Below are positions 16,262-26,580 of a stretch of DNA of 64,000 nt, piece after piece. The notes below the pieces were generated by a model. It was not told where the DNA came from, did not search any database, and saw only the letters and a list, made by a program, of their open reading frames with translations. This stretch comes from Dermatophagoides farinae (Eukaryota > Arthropoda > Arachnida > Sarcoptiformes > Pyroglyphidae). The number at the start of each line of letters is the position of its first letter. Position 1 is the stretch's first letter. The position numbers and the translations under genes are program-made. The DNA lies in contig NC_134686.1 of NCBI RefSeq assembly GCF_024713945.1, forward strand, positions 1,264,001 to 1,328,000, given 5' to 3'.

Positions 16262-16415
16262 ATCGAAAAAAAAATCGACATATCACTGTGAAAAAATCGA
16301 AATTTTTGTTTTATGCTGAGTGATTCTCACAATCTTCGTAGACAACAGATGCCTTAAATGTTTTTTTTTTTGGTTAATCATAAATGTGAAAAATTAAAAT
16401 AAAAACGAAAAAAAA
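16262..16415 (+). other. Probable talin 5' UTR segment after a leader-intron acceptor
   Basis: A pyrimidine-rich tract ending in TTTTAG at 16256-16261 is a strong 3' splice-site match. The 154 bases after it run to the talin ATG without another good acceptor. The inferred reading is that 16262-16415 is 5' UTR spliced to a distant non-coding exon. No matching donor was identified, so this rests on the acceptor alone. Confidence 0.4.
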
Positions 16416-19400
16416 ATGCCTAAAACATCATTGAAAATACATTTTACTGGTGGTCCAGAATCGCCTGAAATTGTCAAAAAAATTCAATTGGATTCATCGT
16501 TAAAGGTGAAAAAAGCTATTGAAGAAATTTATTCAAAACAAAATGATCGCCGTGCACAAATGGGTAAAAGTAAGTTTTTCGGATTTTTTTTTTGTGTATC
16601 AATGTTTAAAATATTTATCTTCATATATTGAAATCGATTATAACCGATTGTTTTGCATGTTTATTTTGTTTATAAATATAGGTACCGATTATGCATTGTA
16701 TTTTTTCAAAGAAGAAAATGGAATCAAAACTGGATTCTGGCTTGATCCAGAACGTGAACTACAATATTATCTATTACGTGATGATGATAATGTTGAATTT
16801 CGTAATAAAATGAGGCCATTAAAAATCCGATTATTGGATGAATCAATAAAAACAATAAATGTTGATTCAAGTCAAATAATTGAAAATCTAATGCCAATTA
16901 TTTGCGATAAATTAGGTGTGGCCAATTATGAAGAATATTCACTTTGTCGTGAAATGGAAAATAATGAAAATTTTGAAAATATGAATGGAACAATGAATGG
17001 TGTTACCGGTACTGGTGGTGGTGGTACATTGATGCGTAATACATTGCGTAAAAATAAGGATCAAAAAATGGAACAATTAAAACGTAAATTAAAAATCGAT
17101 GATGATATGAATTGGATTGATCATATGAAAACATTGGATGAACAAGATATTGGTCCGAATACGACGTTGATATTTCGTCGGAAATATTTCTATTCAGATC
17201 AAAATATTGATTCACGTGATCCGATGCAATTACATTTATTGTATGTACAAACACGTGATGCCATCATTAATGGTACACATCCGGTGACAATGGAACAGGC
17301 ATGTGAATTTGCCGGCATTCAATGTCAAATTGATCATGGTGATTATGTGGAAACTAAACATAAATCTGGATTTCTTGATCTAAAAAATTATCTACCAAGA
17401 GATTATGGTAAACAAAAAAATGCTGAAAAACGAATTTTTATTGAACATAAAAATCATCGTGGCCTTAGCAATGTTGAAGCCAAAGTTCGTTATGTAACCA
17501 AAGCAAGATTATTGAAAACATATGGTGTTACATTTTTTTTGGTTAAAGAAAAAATGCAAGGTAAAAATAAATTAGTACCACGATTATTGGGTGTCACTAA
17601 AGACAGTGTATTACGGTTGGATGAAAAAACTAAAGAAATATTGAAAACATGGCCATTAACAACAGTGAAACGATGGGCACCAACACCGAATAGTTTTACA
17701 TTGGATTTTGGTGATTATTCAGATAGCTATTATTCAGTACAAACAACCGAAGGTGAACAAATTTCCAAATTGATTGGTGGCTATATTGATATAATTTTAC
17801 GACGTAAAAAAGCCAAAGATCATTTTGGTATCGATGGTGATGAAGGTTCGGCAATGATTGAAGATAGTGTATCACCATCTAAAGCAACCATTATGCAACA
17901 TCAACCGGATGCTAAACCATCGAAACCGATAATTGAAGATGTTGCCATTCCGGGTATTATTCGTACTGGCGGTACTGGTGGTCCACAAGTTTTAAAAGTA
18001 GATCAAATACCTGAAGTAAAACAGATACCAGTTGTACAATCGCAAGCACCATTAACACAATCACCAGTAATGGCTGCACAACATCCAAAATATCTACAAA
18101 CTGGTCTATCGGATCCACAACGTGCATTGCTTGGCACTATTGGTACTGGACAAGATGCCGTACAGAAAGCATTGAATGAATTGGATTCAAAAGCCATTAT
18201 ACCTGAATATGGTCCTGATTTAGGCTATAAACAAGATCAATTAGATGTGAAAAAAGAGACTGTTTCATCACAGATGGCCGCATTGAATGCAGCCACAGCC
18301 CAAGTTTTGACATTGACTTCAGTACCCGAAGAAGAGGTTGATCATCCTGCATTGGGTGCGGCTATCAGTACAATAACAACCAATTTACCTGCAATGGCTA
18401 AAGATGTTAAAATGATTGCTGCATTGACTGATGATCATGATCGTGGTGACAAATTGATTGATGCGGCCAGAAATTTATGTAACGCTTTTTCAGATTTATT
18501 GAGAGCAGCCGAACCATCGAATAATGTACCAAGGCAAAACCTGATTACAGCGGCCAATAAAGTGAGCGATGCTACATCGAATCTTTTGTATAACATCGAT
18601 GATGATAATATTGATAGAGAAGCATCCGATACATTGCTTAGTTTATCAAAACCGGTGGCTAATGCAACAGCCAAACTGGTCCTAAAAGCCAAAGATGTTG
18701 CATCCAGATGTGATGATCAAGCGGCTAAAAATCGTGTTATAAGCGCTGCAACACAATGTGCTTTGGCTACATCGCAACTGGTTTCTTGTGCCAAAGTGGT
18801 TGCTCCAACTATTCATAGTCCGAATTGTCAGAAACAGATTGTCGATGCTTCAAAAGAGGTTAGTAAAGCAGTCGATGGTATTACTCGTGTATGTCATGAT
18901 TCGGTTCGTGATCCCTATCTAAATGGTGAAGTCAATCAAGCTGCCAATGAAGTTAATGATGCTTTGAATAATCTATTGAATTATGTCCGTTCATTGGGCG
19001 CAACTGGACGTGGACATCGACGACCAGGTGATGATGGTGCCGTAGACACCATTTTGGATGCCACTGATCGTTTGTTTAGCAGTACTGGTGATGCTTCCGA
19101 AATGGTTAAACAGGCCAAAATTTTGGCTCAAGCCACTTCACAATTGATACAGAATATCAAAGGTCAAGCCGAAACACAACCAGATTCAGATATTCAAAAA
19201 CGTTTGCTTTCAGCAGCAAAAAGTTTAGCCGATGCTACATCACGTCTAGTAGAAGCTGCTAAAGGATGTGCCACAAATCCAAACGATTCAAATTCACAGG
19301 CAGCATTACGTGCTGCAGCAGAAGATCTACGAAATGCTACGAATACGGCCGCCAGTAATGCATTGAAACAAAAACTAATGAATCGTTTAGAATCTACAGC

Positions 19401-22400
19401 CAAATATGCCACCGCTATGGCCACACAGAATATTGCTGCAGTACATGGATGTGCTCCATATAATCAGAATGCGCATAATCAAAATGAAATGAATCAAATG
19501 TGTCGTGAAGTGAATGGAACTATTCCGCCGGTGGTCAGCAGCATCAAGGCCTATCACAATGAGCCAAACAATTCTGGCAAACAGTCTCAATTGATAAATG
19601 CATGCGAAAACTTTATGGGTCCTGCTCTTCGATTGGCTAATGTTTCGTTATCATCGTCGCCAACTATAACGGATAAGTCGGCCTCCATCCAATTGACACA
19701 GTCCGCCCAGCAATTGGCTGAAGCATTATCAGAATTACGAAGCTGTTTGAATAAAGCATCAGAAGCATGTAGTTTCGCCAATGAAATCAATGCAGCAATC
19801 GACAATATTCGTCAATTGAATATTGAACTATCTGAATGTCGTATGGCTGCATTGAAACATGCATTGAAACCATTGCCTGGTGATAATTTTGATCATTGTT
19901 CGTCGCGTTTGAATGCGGCATGTAAATCGGTTGCATCGGCTATGGCACAATTGTTGAGCGCCACATCACAAGGTGAACAAAATTATATTGGCACAGCATC
20001 ACGTGAGGTGACTAGTTCATTGAAAAATTTGACTAGCGCTGCTCGTGGTGTGGCAGCCACAGCATCCGAACGTGATGTACAAATGCAAGTGTTAGATCAT
20101 TCGAATCAGATACTCGAATTGTCTATAACATTGTTCGAAGAGATTCGTTGGGCATTGGAAAATTGTCAGGATTCTGATCGACATCAACGATTGACAAACA
20201 TAGCCAAGTCATTATCGTCAGCATTACAAAACTGTGTCATTTGTTTGCCAAGTCATAAAGATGTCGATGATTCTATTCGTGCCATCAATGATTCAACACG
20301 TACATTAAGCTATGATAATCATTATTCACATAAATCATATGCTGAACTACAGAATGATATTTCTAATGCTGCAACTAGTTTAAATGAAGCCACATCTGAA
20401 GTGATTGAATCGTCACGTTCACCGTCCAAGTTGGCACCAGCATCGAAAAACTATGCCAATCATTATTCAAATTTGTTCCAATTGAGCAATGAAATTTCAG
20501 GTCAAACAAATGACAATGCTGTTAAACAACAGATCATGTCATGCTTGGAAGAGCTATCATCATCATCAAGCCGATTTTTGTCGTCAGCCAAAACTGTTTC
20601 GGCCGATCCGAATGCACCGAATTCAAGCAGTCAATTGGCTACAGCTGCACGTGCCGTTACACAAAGCATTAGTAATTTGCTTGATGTATGTTCATTATCG
20701 GCTCCTGGCCAAAAAGAATGTGATCAAGCTATTCAAAATATTCAAATGATGCGATCATATCTGGATAATCCAAGTGTTCAGCTAAATGATTCAACATATT
20801 TTGAATGTTTAGAATTGGTGACGGAAAAAAGTCGTCGTTTAGGCGATGCTATGACTGGCATTGCTAACTATGCTCGTCGTAATGAACATGAAAATTTTGG
20901 TGAATCCGTTAAAGATGCTTCGGATTCGGTTTGTGGTCTTTTGGAAGGTGCCGCTCAAGCCGCATATTTAGTTGGTGCTTCCGATCCAACCAGTGTGGCT
21001 GGCCGTCCTGGTATTATTGACATTAATCTATTGAATCGAAGTCAAGAAACAATCCATAATGCTTGTGCACAATTAACATCACCGAATGCAACCAAAGATC
21101 AGATAATACGTTGTGCAACTGATATTGCTAAATCCACATCTAATCTATGTAATGCATGTCGTATTGCATCGGCAAAAACACAGAATTCATATCATCGAAA
21201 GAACTTTGTTCAATCAGCCAAAGATGTTGCCAATGCAACAGCAACATTGATCAAAGAGATCAAACCATTGGAAGAATCTAGCGCACAACATGTGAATGAT
21301 AATTGTCGACTTGCCACACGACCATTGCTCGAATCGGTCGATAATTTGGTTTCATTTGCAAACAGTCCGGAATTTGCATCTGTACCGGCACAAATCAGTC
21401 CAAAAGCACGTCAAACACAACAACCAATCACCACCTATGGTAAAGCAATAATCGATGCTTCATCCAATATGATTATGTCGGCCAAAACTTTAGCTGTCAA
21501 TCCAAAAGATCCACCTGGTTGGCAAACATTGGCTAATCATAGTAAAAATGTTAGTGATTCAATCAAAAAACTTGTCACATCCATAAAGGATGCTTCGCCT
21601 GGTCAAAATGAATGTGATGATGCGTTGGAAAAATTGGGCTCATGTATCAAAAAATTGGATCAATCATCATTGGATGCAATCAATAAAGTGCTTCAAGTTC
21701 GTAATGATAATACACCGAAAGGATTCCGTGAAGCCAGTTAGTGCTTCATTATCGGAAATCAAAGAAAACATTGATCCAGTTCGTGTGGCTGGAAAATCGA
21801 AAGCAGAAAAATTGGGACATGCTATAACACAATTGATTAATTATTTTGATCTATTGACATCCAATTCAATTGGTTATGCATCGAAAATACCAGATGATAA
21901 ACAACAGAATCAAATTTTAGACAAATCAAAAGGTGTATGTGAAAGTGCATTACAATTAATATATACGGTAAAAGAATGTGGTGGCAATCCAAAAGCAACA
22001 TCATTACATGCCGAAATTGAAGATTCAAGTGCCGATATGAAAAATGCTATAAAGAATTACGAAAATCTAATGCAATCAGCCGCATCAGAAGAAGGACATG
22101 TTAACAGTATTGTTGAACAATTGACAAAATCATTGACACGAATCGAAGAACGATCATATGCATATTCGAATGGTTCCAGTCCGGATAATCTTTCCTATGT
22201 GGACTATCAAACAAGAATGGTAGCCTGTGTCAAAGAAATTGCAAGAATAGCACAAGATATGGTAAGTGGGATACTAATGATGATGATCATCAGTCAGTCT
22301 AATTAATTGTTATTGTTGTTGTTTCTTTTTTTAGAGTGCTAAATCTGCAACCCAAGTATCACAACTTGGTGCTTTATGCACAAGACTATCCGAAAATTAT

Positions 22401-24879
22401 GCCAATTTAGCAAATGACGTCAATGGTATTGCTGCTGCCACAAATAATATCGAGGTATGTTTTGTTTTTTTATTTCGGCCAAAAAGAATTTCACATTTAT
22501 TTATTTTCGTTTTTTGTTGTTGTTGTTGTTGTTGCATACAATAAAACAAATAGACTGCATCACGTATTAAAAGTAGTGTACAAGAACTTGGTACCGCATG
22601 TGTTGATATCGTAAAAAATGCTGGTTCCTGTTTGACAAATCCTGGTGATACTTATAGTCAACGAGAATTGACTGACAGTGCTCGAAATGTTTCCGAAAAA
22701 TGTTCCTATGTTTTGGCCGCATTTCAAGCCGGATCACGTGGAACTCAGGCTTGTATTATGGCGGCAAATTCAGTACAAGGAATTATTGGCGATATTGATA
22801 CAACGATTTTGTTTGCCAATTCTGGTGCCCTGAATCCAGAAGATCCAAATGATTCTTTTGGTATTTATAAGGATGAAATTCTCAAAACGGCCAAAGCTTT
22901 GGTTGAAGACACCAAAACATTGGTGGCTGGTGCCGCTTCCAGTCAGGAAGCATTAGCTGTTGCTGCTCAAAATGCCGTTACTACGATCACACAATTGACA
23001 ACCGCTGTTAAACAAGGTGCCGCCACATTAGGATCGAATAATTCGGAAGCTCAAGTAATGTTGTTGAATTCTGTCAAAGATGTTGCCATTGCATTGAACG
23101 AATTGATTGATGCAACCAAAACGGCTTCTGGTAAAAATATTAACGATCCTGCAATGATGCATCTGAAAGATTCAGCCAAAGTAAATTTATTCTATTCCCT
23201 ATTCCAATTCTTTCATATTCTAATTGTTTTATTTTCATAGGTTATGGTAACAAATGTAACATCATTATTGAAAACAGTGAAAACTGTTGAAGATGAACAA
23301 CAAAGAGGAACACGTGCTTTGGAAGCAACCATCGATGGAATTGAAGGCGAAATTCGTAGTTATGAAAGTGGTAGCATGTATATTAATCAAGATGTTACGC
23401 CAGAACATTTGATTCGTGCAACAAAACCTGTAACGATGGCTACAGCGAAAGCTGTTGCTGCTGGTACTAGTGGACAACAAGATGATATTATTGTCGTCGC
23501 CAATATGGGTAGAAAAGCTATACACGATCTATTGCAGGTGTGCAAGTCAGCTGCTTTGTTGGCCGATAATCAAGAACTTAAAATGAGAATAATTGATGCT
23601 GGAAAGAAATGTTCACAAGACTATCAAGAATTGTTGAAAATTATCTTTCATATTCTACAACGTCCAACCAATGTCAATGATGTTAAACAGCAATTATATC
23701 AGATGTCACGAACAATAGCCGCTTCAGTTACAGAGATTGTATCGTTAGCAGAAATGTTGAAAGGCGTTGATTGGGTTGATCCTGAAGATCCAACCGTTAT
23801 TGCTGAAAATGAATTATTGGGCGCTGCCTCATCGATCGATCTGGCAGCAAAAAAACTTGCCAATCTACAACCTCGAATAAATAGTATTAAGGTAAGAAAA
23901 ATATGATTCATTCATTCATTCATTCAATGTATTTATTTTTTTATACAATCATTCATTTGGTGATATGTTTGATATTCTTGGTTGTAAAAAGTTATACAAT
24001 CAACCAAGAATCAGACATATAATCCAAACGTTTGATATGACTCATCATTCATTCATTCATTCAAATGATTAATTGATTCATTTAATGAGTTGACTCATCA
24101 TCCATTAATTTTTTTTTCTATTCATTTATCCATTACTTTTTTTTTAGTTGCCCGATGAAGACATGAACTTTGATGAAATCATTTTGGAAGCAGCCAAATC
24201 TATTACACAGGCAACGGCTATGCTTATTAGAGCTGCATCAAATGCTCAAAAAGAATTGGTGGCCACTGGTAAAGTTGATGCTCATGGTGTACATCAATTT
24301 TCTGATGACAGCCAATGGTCAGAGGGTCTTATTTCGGCTGCTCGACACGTGGCTGCTGCTACGCATAGTTTAGTGGAAGCTGCCAATGCTTTAGTGTTAG
24401 GTCAAGCATCTGAAGAGAAATTGATTTCCGCTGCCAAACAAGTAGCCAGTTCAACGGCTCAATTATTAGTCGCTTGTAAAGTTAAAGCTGATCCAGAATC
24501 ACAAGCAATGAAACGTTTACAGACGGCCGGAAATGCTGTGAAAAAAGCAACGGACAATTTGGTTCGTGCTGCACAACAGGCCATCGAACAAGAAGAGGAA
24601 CAAAATTTAATCATAAGTAAACGTCGTGTACAGGGAATCACACAGGAGATTGTTGCCCGTGAAGAAATATTGAAAAAAGAACGAGAATTAGTTGAAGCAA
24701 GAGAAAAATTGGCTGCCATTAATCGTGCCAAATATGGTAATAGACCACCGGATGAAAAAGATTATGGTTTTACATCAGTACAGCAATATAATAATACCTA
24801 TTATCAACAAGATCAAACAACATTCAATAATAACCATCATCATCATCCACATTATCATCAAGGAAATTTTAATCAATAA
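16416..24879 (+). CDS. Talin (rhea/TLN1-like), six coding exons, one frame break
   Basis: Talin is the large cytoplasmic adaptor that activates integrin beta tails and links them to F-actin. Exons: 16416-16569, 16682-22261, 22335-22454, 22554-23180, 23241-23891 and 24148-24879, all with GT-AG borders and compatible phases. About 2620 residues, close to the 2541 of human talin-1. The FERM head has F0 at 1-90, F1 from about 97 with a Gly/Asn-rich loop at about 144-181, F2 from about 222, and F3 at about 333-425 with the conserved stretch LVPRLLGVTKDSV. The helical-bundle rod starts near 531, and the C-terminal I/LWEQ (THATCH) actin-binding module fills exon 6 (2378-2575), followed by a His/Asn-rich tail. 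Exon 2 needs one base skipped near 21721 to stay in frame (see findings). The exon sums are multiples of three only with that correction. Family assignment is certain; intactness of this allele is not. Confidence 0.96.
23955..24029 (+). ncRNA. mir-190: mir-190 precursor hairpin in talin intron 5
   Basis: Intron 5 (23892-24147) holds an imperfect hairpin. The 5' arm at 23961-23984 contains the miR-190 seed GATATGT at 23962-23968 and then GATATTCTTGGTTG at 23971-23984, which as I recall matches the insect miR-190 mature form. The 3' arm, 24001-24020, contains CAACCAAGAATCAGACATAT and pairs back with small bulges. TTTGG at 23956-23960 can also pair with CCAAA at 24024-24028 to extend the base. 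mir-190 is known in an intron of Drosophila rhea (talin) and vertebrate TLN2, so the location supports the call. It is probably processed from the talin transcript. Confidence 0.9.
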
Positions 24880-25719
24880 TTCAATACAAAAATTACACAT
24901 TATCAAGAATCGGCCTTCATTTTGTTATACTTGACATATTGTTATATTGCCATATTTTGTTGCCTGTTTCTCGTCGATGATAGTCATTCATTCATTCATA
25001 AATTCATTCATGATCATAATCATAATCATAATCATCATTCTCTTGGTTTTTTTTCAATTGTCATTTTGAAATCGATAACAAAAAAAAAAACAAATTTAAC
25101 AATATCGACGCACAAAATCAAAAAAAAATCGATGCCAACAAATTGAACTTATCAACATTTAACCATTTTTTTCTTCTAAAGTGCCTAAAACTAAATCTAT
25201 CTTTAATCAAAAAACCAAAAAAAAAAAACGATCATTATTAATCTATATATCTTGTGTTATTATAATTCTGTAAATCATCATATCACATTTGCGATAAAAC
25301 AAATTCTGTTAACTACTACCATTACTATTACTACTACCATTACTACTACTACTATTTTAACTTGAATTCGAATCACCAAAATAAACAAACACCCACACAC
25401 ATAATTGTGTCCGTCCCATACATATTATTACATTACATCTTGAATCTTTTTTTTTTTTTTTGAAAAAAAAGAAAATTTTATTTTCCATTTAATTAATTTG
25501 TTAAAAATTTTATTCAAAAAGATTAATTTATTTCTTCCAATGACGATTATTATTATTATTGAATGAATAAAATAAAGAAAAAAAAGACGATGAAATGACC
25601 TCGTGCTTGTTTGCTGTATTGTCATCATCATGATCATCATCATCGTAATTAGAATCATCAATTTCCCATGGAAATGAACAACAACAAAAAAAGTAAAGAA
25701 AATTTTCCTTGTACTAATC
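24880..25719. other. Talin 3' UTR and spacer to the convergent mRpL32
   Basis: AT-rich, with (CATAAT)n and (CTA)n runs and no coding frame. It holds the probable talin 3' UTR, with its polyadenylation signal at 25380-25385, and then sequence between the two convergent transcripts. Confidence 0.6.
25380..25385 (+). terminator. Candidate talin polyadenylation signal AATAAA
   Basis: Canonical AATAAA about 500 bases after the talin stop codon, before the convergent gene begins. In such AT-rich DNA the hexamer also occurs by chance, so only its position supports it. Confidence 0.35.
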
Positions 25720-25838: not shown

Positions 25839-26580
25839 TCAATTTTTATTATTATTCTCATTATTTGTAATGAAATCTTTTGGATCTATGATAACATTTT
25901 TTGGATCATAATTTTTAGATCCAGTAGATTTTGTCATTAGATTACGGCTAAACCATTGTGGACGTGGATGATCAATGTCAATGATTTCAAATTCGCGTTT
26001 TAATTCCTCTTCATGATGACTAGTGGATGATGATGTTTGTTCATATTTTTCATTTTCGAATCGAAATAAAACATCTTTTTCTTTCGGTTGCAATGGATTC
26101 GTTTGTTCACGTAATGCATCGCGCATTCGTTCCGTTTCTTCTTTAACTTTACGATAACATGTTGGACAGATTGCATAATATTCATGATGATCACCACATC
26201 GTTCACAAATGATAATATCATTTCTTGTTCTCAATATCTTTGCATCCGATGGATAATTTTCAACACCAAATCTTCGTTTTAATCGTTTTTCAATGGTTCT
26301 ACGTTTTTTTGGCACACCCCATAATAATCCATCTTGCATTAAATCATTAATGGATGTCGGTGAACCACCATTTGAAATATTGGGCAAAGATGATTGAACA
26401 ATCACTAGAGCTGGTGGAGCACCTACGGTAAAAAAAAGTTGTCATAATTTTTTTTTCTCTTTAAAAAAAAAAATAATTTCAACACCTACGATTTAGAAAA
26501 TTATCCAAATTGAATAGAGAAAGTCTACAATATTTAATCGTTAAAAATATGTTCTTTGCAGTAGCAAAAAATTGATTCAT
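25839..26580 (-). CDS. mRpL32: Mitochondrial large-subunit ribosomal protein bL32m
   Basis: A structural protein of the mitochondrial 54S/39S ribosomal subunit. Exon 1 is the complement of 26490-26580 and exon 2 the complement of 25839-26422. The 67-base intron has donor GTAGGT and is phase 1, giving 224 residues. The first 31 residues look like a mitochondrial presequence: basic, Phe/Leu-rich and without acidic residues until position 26. The family core follows: LLWGVPKKRRTIEKR, then a zinc site C-x2-C-x9-C-x2-C at about 103-119, and the RPQWFSRN motif where human MRPL32 ends. About 33 Asn/Lys-rich residues extend beyond that point. It is convergent with talin. The ATG at 26580 is chosen because it gives the targeting peptide and correct splicing phase. 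Confidence 0.9.

Follow-up and report, generated by a model that had tools for sequence, protein, structure and literature searches.

Does the talin gene of the dust mite Dermatophagoides farinae carry the microRNA gene mir-190 in an intron, and what does the place of that intron tell us about the age of the association? The question is raised by a stretch of 64,000 nucleotides (hereafter, the window; positions 1264001 to 1328000 of contig C10, in an assembly of 62,435,336 bases and 22 contigs), in which an earlier note, made from the letters alone, had placed a mir-190 hairpin within the last intron of a talin gene. We find that the conserved hairpin in this talin intron is mir-190; it is almost certainly the mir-190 gene of the mite, lying on the talin strand within the last coding intron of that gene, and is most likely processed from the talin pre-mRNA. 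The hairpin and its arms are the following.

23952..24032, plus strand: mir-190 precursor hairpin (Rfam RF00672, 64.3 bits; z −5.71)
23961..23984, plus strand: predicted mature miR-190-5p (from the family alignment; 5′ end predicted)
24003..24024, plus strand: predicted miR-190-3p (star) arm, ends approximate (from the pairing table and an assumed 2-nucleotide [nt] 3′ overhang)

The whole window was scanned against 4,227 Rfam families, and mir-190 was the sole family to reach its gathering score: the hairpin matched RF00672 over model positions 1 to 78 of 78 with an E value of 2.1e-10, and the curated cut-off of the family is 48 bits. Positions 23945 to 24040 folded with an energy of −31.7 kcal/mol, compared to a mean of −14.73 for shuffled sequences (z −5.75; none of 200 shuffles was equal), the core hairpin was likewise more stable than all of its 200 shuffles, and the pairing table showed the arms paired across most of the mature region, as in a conserved microRNA. 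When 455 windows of 96 nt were tiled over the talin gene, the hairpin had the lowest energy (−29.9), closely followed by a window in the last exon (−29.8), so that the hairpin would not stand out by its raw energy; the shuffle z-score and the family model do set it apart, the other four coding introns having z-scores between −0.82 and +0.57. The earlier note, which had named the hairpin mir-190, expected its arms to pair, and put the start of the 5′ arm at 23961, is borne out on each of these points, with the start also predicted by the family alignment.

The predicted 5p arm from 23961 reads TGATATGTTTGATATTCTTGGTTG, and its bases 2 to 8 form the seed GATATGT. It agrees with the fly miR-190 5p sequence at 23 of 24 bases and with the human one at 19 of 22; the first base, presumably A in the fly, is T in the mite. 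Among printed sequences, the snail bgl-miR-190-5p (PMC12261956) is identical by eye to the mite arm over 14 bases from position 2 (23962 to 23975), an identity by which the mite arm has the RF00672 5p seed GAUAUGU and the body that follows it, and the tapeworm emu-miR-190-5p (PMC8016320) has 10 bases from position 2 in common with it.

A search of the whole genome for the mir-190 family gave at least one match (67 of 26,337 candidates scored), and this match is the hairpin in the talin intron. No second match to the 23-nt core (23962 to 23984) at three or fewer mismatches was found in the window, and none of 100 shuffles contained one. Another match of 20 nt with two mismatches, on contig C20, was considered as a second copy and rejected: no family match was found there among the candidates scored, and by our estimate the match is about what chance would give. 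Scans of viral contigs with the 5p arm and of genome contigs with the arm plus its partner gave no matches.

The host of the hairpin is described by four features.

16416..24876, plus strand: talin gene, coding span with six coding exons (Pfam domains; splice sites read by eye)
23241..23891, plus strand: talin exon preceding the host intron, ending with the start of the R13 actin-binding bundle (talin-1 chain 8vdo_A, E 5.4e-60)
23892..24147, plus strand: host intron (256 nt; phase 0), the last to interrupt the talin coding sequence (GTAAGA..TAG; frame open upstream and downstream)
24148..24876, plus strand: last talin coding exon, encoding the I/LWEQ region after helix 1, the dimerization helix, and the C-terminal tail (Pfam I_LWEQ, 172.9 bits; talin-1 chain 9az6_F, E 4e-65)

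The reading frames of the gene carry the Pfam domains FERM_f0, FERM_M, IRS, and Talin_middle, several rod domains, and I_LWEQ, and mir-190 lies in sense within one of its introns and is thus talin hosted. Talin_middle has a single match in the genome, which is the host gene of mir-190 (two of two candidates scored), and the count of talin genes is therefore one; a further gene with I/LWEQ, located on contig C7, is presumably of the HIP1/Sla2 kind. The host intron is bounded by ..NSIK upstream and LPDEDMNF.. downstream and is the last coding intron because the next exon continues to the stop codon (24877 to 24879); "last" applies to coding introns, and an intron in the 3′ untranslated region (UTR) is possible. 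The coding introns (16570 to 16681, 22262 to 22334, 22455 to 22553, 23181 to 23240, and 23892 to 24147) measure 112, 73, 99, 60, and 256 nt, the miR-190 intron being the longest of the five; the first is in phase 1 and the remaining four are in phase 0. A mirtron was also considered and rejected, as the distances from the hairpin to the 5′ and 3′ splice sites are 60 and 115 nt. The claims made beforehand that talin is the host, that the hairpin lies in sense, and that the intron between NSIK and LPDEDMNF is the last coding one hold in full; the claim that it sits just before the actin-binding exon holds for most of R13, which is downstream, but not for helix 1, which is encoded upstream. The last exon also encodes a C-terminal tail rich in Tyr, Gln, Asn, and His (24763 to 24876), which runs 38 residues past the stretch that matches talin-1.

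How the hairpin would give rise to a functional microRNA can be outlined from known machinery, and we infer the processing, strand choice, co-transcription, and targets as follows. The talin pre-mRNA would be transcribed, Drosha, acting with Pasha, would excise the hairpin from the intron, Dicer-1 would trim it, and the 5′ arm (from 23961) would enter Argonaute-1; once loaded, miR-190 would repress mRNAs with sites complementary to GATATGT, and its level would follow talin transcription if the hairpin is without a promoter of its own. The genome does encode Drosha: a 648-amino-acid frame of locus L010 matches two chains, 6v5b_A (ribonuclease 3) with an E value of 4.1e-251 and 9asm_A (isoform 4 of Drosha) with one of 8.1e-251. 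RNase III domains gave eight matches at four loci (L009, L010, L012, and L013, on contigs C2, C1, C3, and C10), a number that fits the one Drosha and three Dicers reported for D. farinae (PMC5805368). Drosha, Pasha, Dicer, and Ago1 have been reported in dust mites (PMC5805368) and in scabies mites.

Several observations weigh against processing of mir-190 from the talin pre-mRNA. An identity (Drosha) could be given to only one of the four RNase III loci, and the evidence for the machinery in the mite genome covers Drosha, with Pasha, Dicer-1, and Ago1 known from related mites. Expression of the microRNA and its 5′ end at 23961 are predictions from sequence. In the assembly, talin does not form a single open frame: the reading frame changes once near 21714 to 21741, where one frame ends at a stop codon (21739 to 21741) and talin-like sequence resumes in another, with no apparent splice sites between. 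This change may be either an assembly error or real; it lies upstream of the host intron and therefore leaves the hairpin unaffected.

Other readings of the same hairpin have to be set beside this one. A real mir-190 might have its own promoter inside talin and not be co-expressed with full-length talin, the link then persisting only because a move out of the intron is difficult. In its favor, mouse Tln2 gives short transcripts in two tissues that express miR-190, testis and kidney, and the authors suggest that these transcripts may serve, among other things, to produce miR-190 (PMC2702505); we consider this arrangement unlikely for the mite. That the hairpin is a decayed copy, no longer processed, is very improbable, given a score that exceeds the family cut-off across the full model and a mature region that is largely paired between the arms. 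An active product from the antisense hairpin is scarcely credible: the minus strand does fold well (z −6.10) and reaches 34.2 bits against the mir-190 family, but this is under the cut-off of 48 bits and compares with 64.3 bits in sense, and a near-perfect hairpin folds on either strand by symmetry.

The link between talin and mir-190 is not new, and an ancient origin has already been suggested in print. In mouse Tln2, miR-190 lies in sense in intron 51, with sequence and position kept in all vertebrates analyzed, and in the honey bee and 12 Drosophila species the talin gene likewise contains and expresses it (PMC2702505); the intron 51 placement is repeated in later reports (PMC6032930 and PMC3485561), fly and human mir-190 share the talin host (PMC4880290), and seven flatworms, three trematodes and four cestodes, carry mir-190 in introns of talin (PMC4405270). 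Nematode mir-50, which lies in talin homologues and was linked by its authors to mir-190 (PMC3282659), speaks against the published view that C. elegans lacks miR-190 and that the microRNA originated within the arthropod lineage (PMC2702505). The snail miR-190 is intronic in a protein gene (PMC12261956). Closer to the mite, miR-190 is among the microRNAs of the scabies mite, from reads matched to miRBase with up to two mismatches (PMC5441584), and is counted in the cattle tick, in a report that nowhere mentions talin (PMC3141673). No statement on mir-190 in mite talin was found in the titles and abstract openings searched, which is weak evidence of absence, with most subscription journals outside that scope. 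The mite is another arthropod that shares its side of the animal tree with Drosophila, and thus does not push back the origin of the link. The proposal of the earlier note, an association dating back to the bilaterian ancestor, is reasonable, but it had been published before and from a broader set of animals than the fly and human cases.

Compared to mouse and human TLN2, the mite has the same microRNA family in the same sense orientation, likewise in one of the more 3′ introns of talin. The host intron of human TLN2-001 (intron 53), however, measures 12,893 nt (PMC4880290), compared to 256 nt in the mite; vertebrates have two talin genes (PMC2702505), and one was found in the mite; and most mammals have a second mir-190 family member (PMC4880290), compared to the one match, a minimum, of the mite genome search. 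The fly dme-mir-190 lies in intron 14 of rhea-RB, which at 356 nt (PMC4880290) is a short arthropod talin intron as in the mite, and a fly study (PMC6453563) describes the final intron of talin as small. The flatworm hosts are the same gene, with introns of 224 to 356 nt in the four cestodes and 685 to 2574 nt in the three trematodes (PMC4405270), and the mature miR-190 of tapeworms is more diverged (PMC8016320). The mir-50 of C. elegans and Brugia is, like mir-190 in the mite, intronic in sense in talin homologues, but its mature sequence is >70% identical and goes by a different name, and the mir-50 of Haemonchus counted as intergenic under the preliminary gene models then used (PMC3282659).

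Whether the mite intron is the same as those of other animals depends on its position in the protein. The exon join aligns at ..RAKPK|EADESLNF.. of solved talin-1, with one gap just before the join, and the miR-190 intron falls at about K2333|E2334 of talin-1. This numbering assumes that chain 2jsw starts at residue 2300 and agrees with the 6r9t match (2294 to 2539), provided that 6r9t carries talin-1 numbers, as we assume. By the usual helix boundaries, the upstream exon encodes helix 1 of R13, and the other helices and the dimerization helix are encoded downstream of the intron. The other three 3′ introns, counted by eye, fall at 6r9t positions 1871|1872, 1911|1912, and 2119|2120. Skipping of exon 43 in mouse Tln2 removes residues 1912 to 1960 (PMC2702505), and the mite intron at 1911|1912 coincides with the start of this exon, provided that talin-1 and talin-2 are numbered alike at this place; this match points to an ancient origin for one or more of the mite talin introns. 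With exon 43 ending at residue 1960 and the boundary between Tln2 exons 54 and 55 set at 2458|2459 by the exon 54b insert, 11 equal-sized exons would end mouse exon 51 near residue 2322, which is consistent with 2333 as a rough estimate and is no test. The exact mouse, human, or fly boundary of the mir-190 host intron was not found in the literature searched. Searches with the last talin exon, aimed at stray animal DNA in which a second host intron might be seen, gave 99 pattern matches in genome contigs and 13 in viral contigs, none of them confirmed.

By eye, mite talin has five coding introns, compared to 55 inferred for mouse Tln2, the exons of which are numbered to 56 (PMC3485561), and the miR-190 intron is among those retained. 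This low intron count with the miR-190 intron kept is the new detail that the mite adds. We regard as evenly balanced the proposal that an ancestral bilaterian intron has been held by its microRNA, talin having shed nearly all of its introns while selection on the intronic RNA prevented the loss of this one. If all 55 introns went back to the ancestor and were lost at random, any one of them would have a chance of about 1 in 11 of being among the five that remain, a figure that, coming from one gene in one genome, is suggestive at best as support for such shielding. The locus provides a clean mite example of a long-standing link between a microRNA and its host gene, and its intron and protein coordinates can be used for asking whether the presence of a microRNA can protect an intron from being lost.

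Regulation of talin by its own microRNA was considered and rejected: the assumed 3′ UTR (24877 to 25450) holds one 7mer-A1 site (25279 to 25285), and 20% of Markov simulations have one as well. An 8-base match to the miR-190 seed, ACATATCA, is located at 16278 to 16285 in the apparent talin 5′ leader, and there are four such 8-mers on the plus strand of the window; the seed matches near talin may be due to chance.

The tail-to-tail neighbor of talin (25839 to 26441, minus strand) is a reading frame with CxxC pairs and no Pfam match at an E value of 0.001, and it resembles mitochondrial ribosomal protein L32. The group-2 allergen family has seven matches in the genome, and one of these, compared with solved structures, matches Der p 2 and Der f 2 with E values of ∼1e-30, which indicates a mite without singling out a species; the presence of this mite allergen homologue agrees with the description of the genome as mite-like in the earlier note.
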